Positions 8,216-22,537 of a stretch of DNA of 31,623 nucleotides are shown here, piece after piece; position 1 is the stretch's first letter, and each line of letters opens with the position of its first letter. The position numbers and the translations under genes were made by a program. The DNA lies in the IMG/VR virus record IMGVR_UViG_3300027742_000030, positions 1-31,623 of that record. One strand, 5' to 3'. The notes below the pieces were generated by a model, which had not been told where the DNA came from, made no database searches, and saw only the letters and a program-made list of their open reading frames with translations. Origin of the DNA: a virus.

Positions 8216-8752
8216 ATGGATGACAGGCTGACTTGGACCAATAGTACGCGCAAGCTGTCGGAGCTGGTGCCGTGGACGCATAACCCGCGAGGCATTAGCG
8301 AGGCTGACGCTGTACGGCTGGCGGAATCGCTGGACCAGTTCGGGCAGATTCACGCTATCGCTATTGGGCCTGGCAATGAGATTCTTGATGGGCATCAGCG
8401 CAAGAATGTGTGGGCAGCCTGCGACCGCTATGGTGCCGACTACGAGGTCGATGTGCGAATATCGTCACGCTCATTGACCGAAGCAGAGCGCGAGAAGCTG
8501 GTCGTCTACCTGCACTCTGGCGCGACCGGCGGCTGGAACTGGGACAAGCTGAGTGCATGGGATCCTACGGCGCTTGAGGGCTGGGGGCTGGATGAGGGCG
8601 CGCTGCGACAGTGGAACGATAACGCGGCGAATCTGCGGGAGATGCGTGAGGCAGAGAAAGAAGTACCAGACTTTCCTGAATATGATGAGAGCATTGCCGA
8701 TGAGGTCGAATGGTTGGAGTGTCCAGAGTGCGGTCATCGCTGGCCAAAATGA
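8216..8752 (+). CDS. ParB/Srx-fold protein with C-terminal Cys pair
   Basis: A 178-residue protein with the ParB N-terminal (ParB/sulfiredoxin) fold. Key segments are LVPWTHNPRG (17-26), SLDQFGQIHAIAI (38-50) and ILDGHQR (56-62), the nucleotide-binding-type motif of this family. The C-terminus carries CPECGHRW (C169, C172), half of a zinc ribbon. Stand-alone ParB-like proteins in phages often sit beside DNA methyltransferases, and here the stop overlaps the methyltransferase start (ATGA at 8749). A role with that enzyme in DNA modification or protection is inferred; plasmid partition is unlikely without ParA. Confidence 0.85.
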   Translation: MDDRLTWTNSTRKLSELVPWTHNPRGISEADAVRLAESLDQFGQIHAIAIGPGNEILDGHQRKNVWAACDRYGADYEVDVRISSRSLTEAEREKLVVYLHSGATGGWNWDKLSAWDPTALEGWGLDEGALRQWNDNAANLREMREAEKEVPDFPEYDESIADEVEWLECPECGHRWPK

Positions 8753-10230
8753 GTATGAAAGACTGGTTTCCGAAGGCGGAGACGAGACCGGTAACAGTGC
8801 GGCAGGCAATCGGATATCTGCCAGTCGGAAAGCAAGGCAATCATGAGCCACAGGTACTAAGGGCTTGGGAGCTAAGCAAGCCTGGCAAATCTCTCCTAGA
8901 GACTTGCCGATATGTTGGCAGCTTTCAGAGCGTTCGACTAGACCCGAACAAGCCAAGCATGACACAGATCAAAGCGCACCTCAATTGGCACTATGCAGTG
9001 GCGCGGCAACTAACGGCCTTGGAGGCTGGGCTAATTGGTAGCTTTCCGCAGAGCTTCCAATGGATCGGGGGCAAGGCAGACTATAAGAAGCGCATCGGCA
9101 ATAGCGTCTCGCCACTGATGATGCGCTTGATTGCAAAAAACATAATCAGTATGCTTAGAATAGGGAAGCCAATACGAGTGAAGAAGTTACAGAAAATAGC
9201 TGACTATCCCGCGCATCTTGAGGCATGTTGGCAAGAGCATCTTGCCCCGCGCGCTGAGGATGCGCCAACAGCCATCAGTACCTTTGCGGGTTGCGGTGGA
9301 TCGTCGCTGGGCTATTCAATGGCCGGCTTCCGTGAGCTGCTGGCCGTGGAGTGGGATGACAATGCTGTGGCAACGTTCAAGCTCAACTTTCCTGATGTGC
9401 CGGTGTATCACGGTGACATCTGCAAGTTGTCACCGGCGAAGTGCTTGGAGCTGACAGGGCTAGAACCTGGGCAACTGGATGTGCTCGACGGATCGCCGCC
9501 GTGCCAGGGATTCAGCACGGCAGGCAAGCGGAAGTTCACCGACGACCGCAACCAGCTCTTCCGCGAATTCGTGCGCTTGCTGCGAGGACTACAGCCGCGG
9601 GTATTCGTAATGGAGAATGTGAGCGGGATGGTCAAGGGCAAGATGAAGCTCATCTTTGCCGACATTCTGCGAGAGCTGAAGGCAAGCGGCTATAAGGTGA
9701 GCGTCCGGCTTCTGAATGCGATGTACTTTGGTGTGCCGCAGTCCCGGCAGCGGCTTATCTTCGTTGGCATGCGTAAGGATTTGGGAATAGAATCGAATCA
9801 TCCTAAGGCAGAGACGGGGCCGGTGCCGGTGCGTAGGGCATTTGTTGGTCTAGCTGACAATAAAGCTGACCGCGTGGTGCCTGACGCTGACAGCAAGACG
9901 CTTACTCAGATGACGACAGTGAGGCCGGGTCACAGATGCTCGTTGCATCACAGTCATCATAGGCTTTCATCATATGAGCCGTCACCGACAGTTGATAGAG
10001 GAGGCGGCGCTGGCGAATGGCATATCTGGCATCCAGTGGAAAATAGGCCGATTACAAGGGCTGAGGTCAAGCGATTGAGTTCATTCCCTGATGAGTATGT
10101 GTTTGCGGGTAGTATCAGCAATGCCTTTGAGCGCATCGGCAATAGTGTTCCACCGCTAATGATGCGCTCGATTGCGCGGCACATTCGGCAGGCGATATTG
10201 ACCAACGGCACACCAGGGCTGATGGGATAG
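8749..10230 (+). CDS. cytosine-C5 DNA methyltransferase with an extra N-terminal half-enzyme
   Basis: A 493-residue protein from ATG 8749. Residues about 175-475 form a complete C5 methyltransferase: motif I STFAGCGGSS (177-186), catalytic C252 in SPPCQGFS, ENV (289-291), QSRQR (331-335), a target-recognition region, and motif X RIGNSVPPLMM (462-472). In addition, residues 1-135 resemble the C-terminal third of another such enzyme: VRQAIGYLP, a recognition-like stretch, then RIGNSVSPLMM (115-125). The two motif-X regions also match at DNA level (9091-9134 against 10132-10175, 37 of 44 bases). An A-rich linker joins them. It probably methylates phage DNA against host restriction. No cognate endonuclease gene is seen. 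Confidence 0.9.
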   Translation: MSMKDWFPKAETRPVTVRQAIGYLPVGKQGNHEPQVLRAWELSKPGKSLLETCRYVGSFQSVRLDPNKPSMTQIKAHLNWHYAVARQLTALEAGLIGSFPQSFQWIGGKADYKKRIGNSVSPLMMRLIAKNIISMLRIGKPIRVKKLQKIADYPAHLEACWQEHLAPRAEDAPTAISTFAGCGGSSLGYSMAGFRELLAVEWDDNAVATFKLNFPDVPVYHGDICKLSPAKCLELTGLEPGQLDVLDGSPPCQGFSTAGKRKFTDDRNQLFREFVRLLRGLQPRVFVMENVSGMVKGKMKLIFADILRELKASGYKVSVRLLNAMYFGVPQSRQRLIFVGMRKDLGIESNHPKAETGPVPVRRAFVGLADNKADRVVPDADSKTLTQMTTVRPGHRCSLHHSHHRLSSYEPSPTVDRGGGAGEWHIWHPVENRPITRAEVKRLSSFPDEYVFAGSISNAFERIGNSVPPLMMRSIARHIRQAILTNGTPGLMG

Positions 10231-13757: not shown

Positions 13758-16532
13758 ATGCCCATCACGCCGCGCATCATCGAAGCCGCTGACACCTTCC
13801 GCGCTCATTTACTTGCACGGGAGAGACGGGCCGCAGGCGCGATGGTCCGCTACTACGGCACCGCATGGCGGCGGCTACGGGGCGACATCACCGCACTATC
13901 GGCTGAGGTGGATGCGATGCGGCTGGCTGGCGAGGAGGTAACGCGCGGTAAGATCGTCAGGCTTGAGCGGATGCGCGCCATCCAAGTGCAGGTTGAGCAA
14001 GAGCTGGGACAGTTCGCACAGTATGCAGATGAGGCCATCGTGGCTCAGAAGCGCGAGAGCATCTTGGCTGGGGAGCGGGAATCGGCGGCTCTGATTGAGT
14101 ACGCATTCCCGCAGGGCGCCAGTATCAACATCAGCCACTACCAGATGCCGCGGGCCGCTGTTGAGAACCTGGTAGGCTTCCTGCAGGACGGGTCGCCACT
14201 ACAGGATATCATCACGGGCTATGTTGGCAGCGCAGCCGATGCCTTCGGTGAGACGATGGTCACGGGGTTAGTGACCGGGCTGGGGCCGCGGCAGTTGGCC
14301 CGCGAGCTGCGGCAAGCCTACGGGATGGGACTAACAGACGCGCTGCGGCTATCGAGGACGGAGAACCTGCGGGCCTACCGTACTGCGTCCCGGCAGACGT
14401 ATGAGGCCAATGCCGACGTGCTCAAGGGGTGGATTCGGCATTCGGCTAGGGACGACCGGGTTTGCCTAGCTTGTGTGATGCTTGACGGCACGCATTACGA
14501 CCTAGCAACAGACATGGCGGATCACGTGATGGGCAGATGCCTGGCTGCTGGAGAGCTGGTGTTGACGCGAGCGGGCTGGGCGCGGATCGAGGATATCACG
14601 GCTGGCGATTGCGTAATGACGCATAAGGGCAGATATCGGATGGTTACGGCGACAAGTAAGCGCAGGCATGATGGCGAAATCTTGCATATTAGGCAAGGTG
14701 AATACTCCGCGCGCGTCACGCCGGATCACCCAATAATGACCTCCACCGGATGGGTGGAGGCGCGCCTCCTAAATGCGAGTTCTATCTTGCGCACATTGAA
14801 TGATGTACTTCTGCGAGATTCAACGCGTAGCACTTCCCATCCGAGCGATATGAGAAGCGCATCTTTCCTGGCGTCTCCAAGGGCTTTCTTCCCTGTATTA
14901 TGCCAGAGCGGGTCAAGTTCTATGGCGAGCTTCACGGACAGAAACGCGAAGTCGATGTTGTATATGTCTACGGCATATTCCGGCACAGGGAAGAGCCCAG
15001 CATCATTCAGTGCGCCCATAAAGGCGCGTTCGTTGGGGCTTTGTACTGCGCGCCAATTTGCGCCGCGCGTTCTTGCGCGCTTGCGGCGTGCCTCGGGCGC
15101 GTTCCCAGCAGCAACAAGATTAGTGATGAACTCTGGCCGATCACGTATTAGGCGCCTTGCTGCCTCGCTGTTGGAGATTGGTTCAATGTTGCACTCTCGC
15201 ATCAACCGCATAAGCGACCTAGTATTGATTCCGGCTTCTGCTGTGAGTTCTCGATATGTTGCTTCCTCACCATATCGCCGACGGAGCCAGGCGCAGATAG
15301 GTTCACCGAGCCGTGCTTCAAGCTCACGGTTCCAGCGCAGCGAGACGATAATGCCACGCTGCTCCGGTGTCTTGCGCAATCCTAACGCTTTGGCGCGGTG
15401 GCGGACAGACCCTGGAGTACGCCCAGGCAATTCTGCGGCGATTTCTTCTGCATCATACCGGAAGAACATTTCACGTATAACTGAACCTTCTGAGCTAGTC
15501 CATCGTCGTCCCATTCGTTGCCTCCTTGATTGGTTTGGTAACATTATACACCAGCTCAACATAAAGGCAAGTGAATACACCGGCTTGGTTTACGATCTGC
15601 AGGTTGACCAAGACGAGAGTTTCATTGCTGGCGGCATAGTAGTCCACAACTGTGCGATGCTTCCAGAGACCAAGACCTATGCCGAGTTGGGCATCGATGC
15701 GCCTGAGCCGCAGTTCCAGCAGGAGTCGGCGCGAGAGTGGTTTGAACGCCAGCCGGAGAGCGTACAGCGCAAGATGATGGGCGCCGGCAAGTTTGACGCC
15801 TGGAAGGACGGAAAGTTTAAGCTTGATGACATCCCGCAGCTCACGCACTCGGACTTGTGGGGCGATGCCTGGACTCCCAAGTCGCTATACGAACTATTGG
15901 GCGAGGATGCGCCGGTGGGCACATATGCGGGGTGGGCGGCGGGACGGGGAGCAGCTATCCCGGATTGGATGCCGCCAAGGTTCGGAGATAAGACTGAGGC
16001 GGGGCAGTGGATAAGGGACAATCTACTCGCAAGGCCAGGCTCGCAATTCGCATACGACTTCATCGATCTATCGCCAGAGCAATTGCAGACATTGGCGGAT
16101 GTTCTCGCGGAGGAAAAGCAGAAGCACGGGCTGATGTTTGACATGATACTGCCGACCTCTGCGGAGTCAAATGCATTTGCATGGGTTCAGAACCGCGAGG
16201 TTCTAGGAGAGCAGCATAGCAACCTAACACTGACGTTTGCGGGAGCGGATGAAGAAATAGCGAGGCGGCATGCGCGGGCATTATCGGATGGATTTGTCAC
16301 GGAAGAAAACTATGCAGACGTGATAAGACATGAGTATGGACACCTTATGCTATTCAATGATCCAGAGCTTGCGCAGCGTGCTGAGGAATTATACTTGAGT
16401 GAGCATAGGGAGATGTGGGTGCAAATGAGCAGATACGCGGCGCAGAATTACCATGAGATGTTTGCAGAATCCTATTCTATGAAGGGGCGCAACTGGATGG
16501 CCGACAAGGTTATGGAGGCGCTGGGATTATGA
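13758..16532 (+). CDS. MuF minor head protein with intein and C-terminal zincin-like domain
   Basis: A 924-codon gene. Residues 1-260 plus 632 onward form a Mu gpF-like head protein: a helical N-terminus, the TENLRAYRTASRQTYEAN helix, and DDRVCLACVMLDGT leading to the conserved motif that reads GR/CAMLP once the intein is removed. Residues 261-631 are the intein, so the mature product would be 553 residues. The C-terminal part holds HEYGH (H858, E859, H862) and FAES (E904), the pattern of a zinc metallopeptidase. Codons in that domain are AT-richer (ATA, AGA, TTA) than in the MuF part, suggesting a swapped-in module. MuF proteins sit inside the head at the portal and sometimes carry variable effector domains. 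Confidence 0.9.
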   Translation: MPITPRIIEAADTFRAHLLARERRAAGAMVRYYGTAWRRLRGDITALSAEVDAMRLAGEEVTRGKIVRLERMRAIQVQVEQELGQFAQYADEAIVAQKRESILAGERESAALIEYAFPQGASINISHYQMPRAAVENLVGFLQDGSPLQDIITGYVGSAADAFGETMVTGLVTGLGPRQLARELRQAYGMGLTDALRLSRTENLRAYRTASRQTYEANADVLKGWIRHSARDDRVCLACVMLDGTHYDLATDMADHVMGRCLAAGELVLTRAGWARIEDITAGDCVMTHKGRYRMVTATSKRRHDGEILHIRQGEYSARVTPDHPIMTSTGWVEARLLNASSILRTLNDVLLRDSTRSTSHPSDMRSASFLASPRAFFPVLCQSGSSSMASFTDRNAKSMLYMSTAYSGTGKSPASFSAPIKARSLGLCTARQFAPRVLARLRRASGAFPAATRLVMNSGRSRIRRLAASLLEIGSMLHSRINRISDLVLIPASAVSSRYVASSPYRRRSQAQIGSPSRASSSRFQRSETIMPRCSGVLRNPNALARWRTDPGVRPGNSAAISSASYRKNISRITEPSELVHRRPIRCLLDWFGNIIHQLNIKASEYTGLVYDLQVDQDESFIAGGIVVHNCAMLPETKTYAELGIDAPEPQFQQESAREWFERQPESVQRKMMGAGKFDAWKDGKFKLDDIPQLTHSDLWGDAWTPKSLYELLGEDAPVGTYAGWAAGRGAAIPDWMPPRFGDKTEAGQWIRDNLLARPGSQFAYDFIDLSPEQLQTLADVLAEEKQKHGLMFDMILPTSAESNAFAWVQNREVLGEQHSNLTLTFAGADEEIARRHARALSDGFVTEENYADVIRHEYGHLMLFNDPELAQRAEELYLSEHREMWVQMSRYAAQNYHEMFAESYSMKGRNWMADKVMEALGL
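14726..15514 (-). CDS. EDxHD (Vsr-like) homing endonuclease, antisense inside the intein
   Basis: A 262-residue protein from ATG 15514, with a perfect AGGAGG six bases upstream (15521-15526 on the + strand). Residues 3-48 form a Myb/SANT-like DNA-binding unit (WTSSEGSVIREMF to GSVRHRAKALGL). A second helix-turn-helix-like segment follows near 83-120. The catalytic domain has E162 (SPNERAF), D188 (NIDFAF), E199-x-D201 with H205 (IELDPLWHN) and D218 (RKDALL), then GWEVLRV. This is the EDxHD fold known from phage intron and split-intein endonucleases. It is the only convincing minus-strand gene in the window. Its stop lies over intein block B. It would cut intein-free MuF alleles to spread the intein. 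Confidence 0.85.
   Translation of the reverse strand: MGRRWTSSEGSVIREMFFRYDAEEIAAELPGRTPGSVRHRAKALGLRKTPEQRGIIVSLRWNRELEARLGEPICAWLRRRYGEEATYRELTAEAGINTRSLMRLMRECNIEPISNSEAARRLIRDRPEFITNLVAAGNAPEARRKRARTRGANWRAVQSPNERAFMGALNDAGLFPVPEYAVDIYNIDFAFLSVKLAIELDPLWHNTGKKALGDARKDALLISLGWEVLRVESRRSTSFNVRKIELAFRRRASTHPVEVIIG
15521..15570 (-). promoter_or_regulatory. antisense promoter and ribosome site of the intein endonuclease
   Basis: On the minus strand TTGCCT (15570-15565) and a perfect TATAAT (15548-15543) are spaced by 16 bases, followed by AGGAGG (15526-15521) and ATG at 15514. All of it lies between the endonuclease start and intein block F. The endonuclease gene can thus be expressed independently of the sense structural transcript. 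Confidence 0.65.
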
Positions 16533-21337: not shown

Positions 21338-22537
21338 ATGAGTAAACTGTTAACAACGGGCGCGGCGCCCTGGGTGAAATCGGGATACGGAAAGCCCTGG
21401 ACGTATCTATTCCCGCGCCTGGCTAAGGCCGGACACGAATTGGCAATGGCGCCGTTCTTCGGTTGGCGAGGAAGTGTGGCGACCGTGGACATCGGCGGGG
21501 CACCCGTGAAGTTCTATCCTCTCGCCAGGGACCGCTTCTTCAACGATATCATCGAATATCACGCCGCGGACTTCGGAGCCGATGTGGTGATTACGATGCA
21601 GGACGTGTGGACGCTGAACGGATGGGGGCAGAAGGGACTTACTTGGTGCCCCAACTTCCCGGTGGACACTGAGCCGGTGAGCGACGCGATCCTGCACGCC
21701 ATCGAAGGCTGTCATACGCCATTAGTCAATACCCGCTGGGCACAACGGCAGCTATTCGAGCATGGATGGATGAATGCATACTATTTGCCCTACGGCGTTG
21801 ATTGCAGTATCTTCGCACCGGGCGACAAGGCTTCGGCGCGCGAAGCGCTGGGCCTACCGGCAGATGTGTTCATCGCCGGGATGGTGGCAGCCAACTCCAG
21901 CTTCCCATGCCGCAAGAGCTTCCCTGAGGTGCTGCAAGCGTGGCGCCGGTGGCTGGATGCGGGAAACGATGGTCTACTGTACATTTACACGACCGTCACA
22001 TCTAAGCGCAACAGCGGTGTGCAGCTTGAGCGAATCCTGAGCACGCTCAGTCTGGACTGGTCCAGTCTAGACGACCCGGATCCTGACCGCAAGGCGCGCG
22101 CCAAGGTGATGTTCCCACCGCAATACCGCATGTGGTGCGGCGCGGTGGATGATAATGAACTGGCGAACGTATACCGCTCGATGGATGTGCTGCTGTCGCC
22201 ATCACAGGCTGAGGGCTTCGGCATCCCCATCGTGGAGGCACAGGCATGCGGGACTCCGGTAGTAACGCTCAACATCACATCAATGCCTGAGCTGACGTTC
22301 GCGGGATTATGCCTTGAGCCGACACAGCCTATGTGGGAGACCGAGGGCGCCTGGCGCGGCGTGGCAGGGGTGGATGACATCATGGGGGCCTTGGATTGGG
22401 CCAGCGGACTCACTAATGCCATGCATGCAGAGCTTGCGGCGATAGGCCGGGCGGGCGCGCTTGATTTCGACTTCGACGTAGAGATCGAGCGCGACTGGCT
22501 GCCACTGCTGGAGCGAATCGAGGCCGAGAAATGCTGA
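21338..22537 (+). CDS. GT4-type glycosyltransferase
   Basis: A 399-residue GT-B fold enzyme with GAAAGGGGG before ATG 21338. The C-terminal donor-binding domain has SPSQAEGFGIPIVEAQACGT, giving the E-x7-E motif (E292, E300) of family GT4. The N-terminal domain has a Gly-rich start (SGYGKPWTYLFPRL). Such enzymes move a sugar from a nucleotide donor to an acceptor. Placed among head-neck genes, it may glycosylate a virion protein; acceptor and sugar are unknown. It overlaps the next gene by 7 bases. Confidence 0.88.
   Translation: MSKLLTTGAAPWVKSGYGKPWTYLFPRLAKAGHELAMAPFFGWRGSVATVDIGGAPVKFYPLARDRFFNDIIEYHAADFGADVVITMQDVWTLNGWGQKGLTWCPNFPVDTEPVSDAILHAIEGCHTPLVNTRWAQRQLFEHGWMNAYYLPYGVDCSIFAPGDKASAREALGLPADVFIAGMVAANSSFPCRKSFPEVLQAWRRWLDAGNDGLLYIYTTVTSKRNSGVQLERILSTLSLDWSSLDDPDPDRKARAKVMFPPQYRMWCGAVDDNELANVYRSMDVLLSPSQAEGFGIPIVEAQACGTPVVTLNITSMPELTFAGLCLEPTQPMWETEGAWRGVAGVDDIMGALDWASGLTNAMHAELAAIGRAGALDFDFDVEIERDWLPLLERIEAEKC

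Follow-up and report, generated by a model that had tools for sequence, protein, structure and literature searches.

Is the N-terminal extension of a phage C5-cytosine methyltransferase a working second recognition module, or a leftover of the history of its gene? This question is raised by a gene in the window, as we call the whole 31,623-nucleotide stretch of DNA analyzed here, a 31.6-kb virus record that also carries a head and packaging region with terminase, portal, and head proteins. An earlier reading of the sequence alone had described the gene as a whole C5 enzyme standing behind an extra region that resembles the recognition domain and motif X of another, and profile searches confirm both parts. 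The 493-residue product of the open reading frame at 8749 to 10230 (plus strand) matched PF00145 over residues 175 to 479, which covers profile positions 3 to 322 of 324 (E = 4.5e-74), and motifs I, IV (PPC), VI (ENV), VIII (QxRxR), IX, and X were all present in this full-length match. When isolated, the first 144 residues matched positions 256 to 323 of 324, the last fifth of the same profile (E = 7e-9). An HMM of the module, built from rear modules, scored the rear module of the window protein at 158 bits and its front module at 110 bits over positions 5 to 136 of 145. The gene encodes a C5-cytosine methyltransferase that is itself intact and has, ahead of it, a complete second module for recognition with motifs IX and X.

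Alignment divides the protein into residues 8 to 140, which hold a target-recognition domain (TRD) with motifs IX and X; residues 174 to 346, which hold motifs I to VIII; and residues 348 to 486, which hold a second TRD with motifs IX and X. In the front module (all parts on the plus strand), the target-recognition region covers residues 8 to 85 approximately (8770 to 9003) and is followed by motif IX (RQLTALEAGLIGSFPQSF, 9004 to 9057, from alignments) and motif X (RIGNSVSPLMMRLIAKN, 9091 to 9141), in which the conserved GN is present and which reads GNSVSP, not GNSVPP. A linker (9142 to 9267) that holds an in-frame GTG at 9178 leads to the catalytic domain (9268 to 9786), delimited by PF00145 and invariant columns. 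Its landmarks are FAGCGG, with motif I near 9277, PPC (9496 to 9504), ENV (9613 to 9621), and QSRQR (9739 to 9753), and its catalytic residues sit in invariant columns of the family alignment. The rear module, found with the module HMM, has its target-recognition region in the canonical place (9790 to 10044), followed by motif IX (10045 to 10098, from alignments) and motif X (RIGNSVPPLMMRSIARH, 10132 to 10182).

The window protein is probably a two-module C5 methyltransferase in which one core is shared by two alternative modules, and two target sites are predicted for it. Each module would supply a TRD, motif IX, and motif X, whose helix completes the AdoMet pocket, a role established for C5 enzymes (PMC5944983). 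The rear module and the core would together form a canonical enzyme, and the front module with the same core a circularly permuted one. Such a pairing is possible because C5 enzymes tolerate both splitting (PMC3404938; PMC5944983) and permutation (PMC5944983) between motif VIII and the TRD. Two modules would then direct methylation to two different target sequences, and shielding of phage DNA against host restriction enzymes would be the likely benefit. The family as a whole may build its enzymes by cassette exchange, with modules placed before the core, after the core, or in separate, translationally coupled genes.

Structure prediction is compatible with this reading. An AlphaFold model of the front module plus core (residues 1 to 368; pLDDT 86, pTM 0.87) agrees with a compact enzyme of permuted order. 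In the full-length model (pLDDT 91, pTM 0.76), the core and rear module match solved C5 enzymes along their entire length; Foldseek aligned this model with 8yf3 over 356 columns (TMt 0.83) and with M.HaeIII and M.HhaI (TMt up to about 0.8). For the front-module-plus-core model, the best PDB matches covered essentially the core only (about 185 columns), which is expected because the chain is permuted and Foldseek aligns in sequence order. Nothing decisive came from a Foldseek search against a viral library. According to the full-length model, the rear module docks in the canonical way, and the front module folds well but is positioned less firmly; the pTM suggests that the front module could also dock in the canonical manner, and the model would fit two modules that compete for one site. 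The nearest solved structure, 8yf3, is a C5-carboxymethyltransferase, and use of carboxymethyl-AdoMet (Cx-SAM) was considered and rejected: motif X of 8yf3 has G-R where both window modules have G-N, and the window enzyme is expected to use ordinary AdoMet.

To ask how widespread this layout is, homologue searches covered viral contigs and bacterial genomes, and architectures were called with HMMs for the core (C) and the module (T); related loci are given L numbers. Most ParB-linked loci of the family have the canonical order C-T. The search for homologues with the same fusion, proposed in the sequence-only reading, returned 15 distinct uninterrupted T-C-T proteins, the window protein included (the others are in L004, L005, L018, L026, L031, L049, L054, L070, L100, L104, L110, L111, L224, and L238), some with partial or short front modules (L049 and L070). 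Another three are interrupted, by a stop in the rear module (L002), a frameshift before the rear module (L039), or a frameshift in the front module (L045); each break, which may be a sequencing error, spares one module that is still joined to the core. A search for relatives of the front module alone found only L098, no phage record covered 80% of the window protein, and the plasmid matches examined (L260, L261, and L262) had a canonical core plus module and no double layout. Purely permuted T-C proteins occur in L063 and in the cyanobacterial contig L145, and a remote archaeal protein (L173) also has motif X ahead of motif I. In L116 (1616 to 2914), the order is C-T-T, with two apparent tandem recognition regions after the core and motifs IX and X with the second only.

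Modules also occur as separate genes, with a core gene followed by three module genes in L051, L052, and L065 and by two in L060 and L267; in L267, the first of the two carries a frameshift. In these arrays, most genes overlap their neighbors by ATGA or TTGA, as in translationally coupled operons. L051, L052, and L065 each have a module akin to the window front module in second place, and L060 and L267 have none of this type; entire modules are thus gained and lost. A DNA-pattern scan for further stand-alone module arrays yielded one already-known contig only; L267 came from the core search.

The window front module is closest to rear modules found in other phages (60% identity with L098 and L078, 58% with L055, and 56% with L066), and it is 50 to 51% identical to the stand-alone second modules of L051, L052, and L065. 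Elsewhere in the family, front modules likewise pair with rear modules as nearest relatives (L026 with L044, 75%; L002 with L037, 70%; L063 with L013, 64%; L224 with L021, 63%). In a tree of 162 modules, the window front module falls in a clade of seven rear modules, three stand-alone modules, and this one front module, with 100% SH-aLRT support. Across the same tree, the front label requires 17 changes for 20 rows, at least 8 of which are forced by strong branches. In a tree of catalytic domains, which is weakly resolved, the T-C-T proteins are scattered and cluster no better than shuffled labels, with 15 changes for 16 module-core-module rows and at least 3 forced by strong branches. The window core is 87% identical to that of L039, and the modules of the two proteins differ. 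These relationships suggest that the same kind of module has been exchanged as a cassette among positions before the core, behind it, and in genes of its own. Neither tree supports a single origin of the fusion, although both are weakly resolved. Recent tandem duplication of the rear module as the source of the front one was also rejected; the two are only 38% identical over their whole length, and the nearest kin of the front module are the rear modules named above.

Substitution patterns point to constraint on the modules. Between the window front module and L098, changes at codon positions 1, 2, and 3 number 42, 36, and 87, with a dN of 0.37 and a saturated dS; for the stand-alone modules of L051, L052, and L065, dN/dS is about 0.09 to 0.23 where measurable. 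Twenty residues that are highly conserved in rear modules are kept at 94% in rear, 92% in stand-alone, and 86% in front modules, and the window front module retains 15 of 18 conserved positions, fewer than typical rear modules. These comparisons show modules under purifying selection, with a front-position signal that is inseparable from that of rear-position relatives, since no close relative carries the same front module in front. Of the two origins offered by the sequence-only reading, a second recognition domain is the better supported, as the module is complete, conserved, recurrent, and like the rear modules of other phages; that it confers a second target site is a prediction.

The two motif X regions of the window gene share a DNA repeat of 46 bases (9089 to 9134 and 10130 to 10175) with 85% identity, in agreement with the 37 of 44 matching bases that had been noticed from the sequence. 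Over 45 nucleotides, the two segments are 82% alike, and their residues agree at only 12 of 15 positions. Compared with 151 motif X segments of relatives, each has its closest match in the other; for the front segment, the best identity to a relative is 78% and the median 62%. Recombination within the gene is hinted at by this mutual closeness, and the likeness may be its trace, with shared codon usage as a possible contributor. Motif X segments also tend to be alike within the genes of L104, L018, L005, L070, L100, and L111, and other T-C-T proteins show no such likeness.

The repeat is among the observations that would suit a front module that no longer functions, either a tandem duplicate or the fused tail of a neighbor that lost its catalytic part, in which case the enzyme would have one specificity and represent only an intermediate of permutation. 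We consider this unlikely. The permutation-by-duplication model, in which duplication is followed by truncation, requires exactly such an intermediate (PMC5944983), the purely permuted members L063 and L145 exist, and the short front modules of L049 and L070 could be read as decaying; however, an identity of 38% between the window modules does not indicate a copy, the excess of third-position changes and the retained conserved residues oppose decay, and reading frames are open in most members. Fusion with a neighboring methyltransferase that had lost its N-terminal part, the second origin offered by the sequence-only reading, is possible as a starting point, but no catalytic remnant precedes the module, and in relatives modules move as units. 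It is also quite unlikely that the front module serves as an additional DNA-binding, dimerization, or regulatory domain, with the sole target determined by the rear module. The rear module does hold the canonical site in the full-length model, and the pTM of that model is lower than that of the front module with the core; against this, motifs IX and X are kept, although DNA binding alone would not require them, and homologous modules are the sole modules of their enzymes.

Production of two isoforms, the full-length protein and a core-plus-rear-module form from an internal start, is a tentative proposal that we find rather doubtful, and it would be compatible with a shared core and two alternative modules. 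Among 19 front-module proteins, 8 have an ATG in the linker with a Shine-Dalgarno-like stretch 8 to 12 nucleotides upstream, matches that are common by chance, but the window offers only the GTG at 9178, with a weak AGGGA; initiation of a shorter isoform at this codon is speculative. An assembly or sequencing artefact is extremely improbable. The source is a metagenomic contig, but the layout recurs in many unrelated contigs, long ones included (L026, 56 kb; L005, 56 kb; L238, 122 kb), with ParB upstream throughout, and assembly error was rejected on this ground. The sequence-only reading had allowed that the N-terminal part might be a separate gene in a related phage and the fusion an artefact; the module is indeed separate in L051, L052, and L065, but the fusion itself, found in independent contigs, is no artefact.

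With two alternative modules on one core as the preferred reading, the window enzyme can be set beside known systems. M.phiBssHII reportedly has one N-terminal domain (HaeII specificity) plus conventional ones, is said to occur as two isoforms and to retain the function of its N-terminal domain when this is moved to the conventional place, and is reportedly kin to the Bacillus phage phi3T enzymes. It differs from the window enzyme, which is ParB-linked, in its catalytic subfamily and genetic setting. The likeness lies in target-recognizing domains at separated locations, as M.phiBssHII is described where it is cited (Sethmann et al. 1999, EMBO J 18:3502, PMC1171429; cited in PMC8936443); the window enzyme has a TRD upstream of motif I (at most 60% identical to rear modules) plus a conventional TRD. 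A phi3TII-like enzyme of Bacillus phage EZ-2018a (L259, 2731 to 4008) carries, N-terminal to motif I, a short stretch that resembles a TRD (LSKPSPAVVA) and lacks motifs IX and X, a layout that is possibly closer to M.phiBssHII.

Circularly permuted C5 enzymes (M.BssHII, M.Alw26I, M.Esp3I, and others) make up 27 of 20,677 REBASE entries (PMC5944983). Like them, the window enzyme has a motif X before motif I (9091 to 9141 versus about 9277), with the permutation placed inside the variable region; unlike them, with motifs IX and X only ahead of motifs I to VIII, it also has a full rear set of motifs IX and X (10045 to 10182). It is therefore not a member of the permuted M.BssHII type, whereas its own family has permuted members in L063 and L145. 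The sequence-only reading had drawn this contrast, with motif X both early and late, but had missed the precedent of M.phiBssHII. Among the split enzymes M.AquI and M.EcoHK31I, the M.AquI TRD and motifs IX and X can lie on a separate polypeptide that complements a core of motifs I to VIII (PMC3404938). Core and module are on separate polypeptides in L051, L052, L060, L065, and L267 as well, but the known split enzymes have one small subunit where L051, L052, and L065 have three module genes per core, and the window protein is a single open reading frame with two modules fused to the core. The Bacillus phage enzymes SPR, SPbeta, and phi3T, cited as having several TRDs for several targets (Wilke et al. 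1988, cited in PMC8936443), are again single phage enzymes with several recognition domains. Their TRDs, however, stand in tandem in one variable region with one shared set of motifs IX and X, whereas the two TRDs of the window enzyme flank the core, each with its own motifs IX and X.

C5 enzymes with N-terminal TRDs, permuted order, split chains, or tandem TRDs are thus already known, and the interesting part is the shuffling of modules and the arrays of several subunits. In the open-access papers searched, we found no description of a complete TRD-IX-X module before a complete C5 enzyme, of free module movement among three positions, or of a core gene with an array of two or three distinct module genes behind it. 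Collectively, the architectures allow a broader reading, on which we are evenly divided: a combinatorial phage C5 system in which a core has two or three interchangeable modules, fused or as stand-alone subunits, that compete for one docking site, making it a C5 counterpart of Type I enzymes with multiple specificity subunits and a living intermediate between canonical and permuted enzymes. One family with closely related cores shows nearly every proposed step (canonical, doubled, split, and permuted), and permutation by duplication, for which the case has rested on end states and engineered proteins, can now be tested directly on natural intermediates. If the modules work as proposed, the family would hold a natural collection of interchangeable specificity parts for a single core, a ready means of testing how phages keep pace with host restriction enzymes and a supply of components for programmable methylation of cytosine.

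Directly upstream of the methyltransferase gene lies a gene for a ParB-like protein of 178 residues (8216 to 8752, plus strand), with matches to PHROG 620/498 and a C-terminal zinc-ribbon tail (CPECGHRWPK); its stop and the methyltransferase ATG at 8749 overlap as ATGA. A ParB-like gene directly precedes the core in 181 of 195 related loci, a count in which some loci are repeat fetches of one contig. In most, the upstream protein ends in a zinc ribbon (CPxCGHxxPK), and the methyltransferase start is usually overlapped. In the phages nearest to this one, with about 80% identity in terminase and 71 to 73% in ParB, that ParB is fused to two sorts of N6/N4-type methyltransferases (L082, 2870 to 4138; L084, 683 to 2221). 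The open reading frames of both end in TNGTPELMG, and the window C5 enzyme ends in TNGTPGLMG (10201 to 10230, plus strand), so that a tail NGTPxLMG is common to this enzyme and to unrelated methyltransferases at the same locus. The locus looks like a modification hot spot at which only the methyltransferase may have been exchanged between conserved ends, ParB and NGTPxLMG.

Elsewhere in the window, a glycosyltransferase-like gene (phrog_2170) lies at 21338 to 22537, in the phage morphogenesis region. A C5 methyltransferase of the same family in a KSB1 MAG (L148, 947 to 2677) contains a Hint/intein of about 150 residues, and the motif IV catalytic Cys (PP-C) follows immediately after it. In the window, a head morphogenesis (Mu F-like) protein of 924 residues (13758 to 16532) contains a likely intein of some 370 residues that interrupts its sequence. 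Its first residue is the Cys in GRC-LAAGELVLTRAGW, it ends in VVHN, followed by CAMLPE, and it matches Pfam Intein_splicing (8.5e-8) as well as Hint_2.
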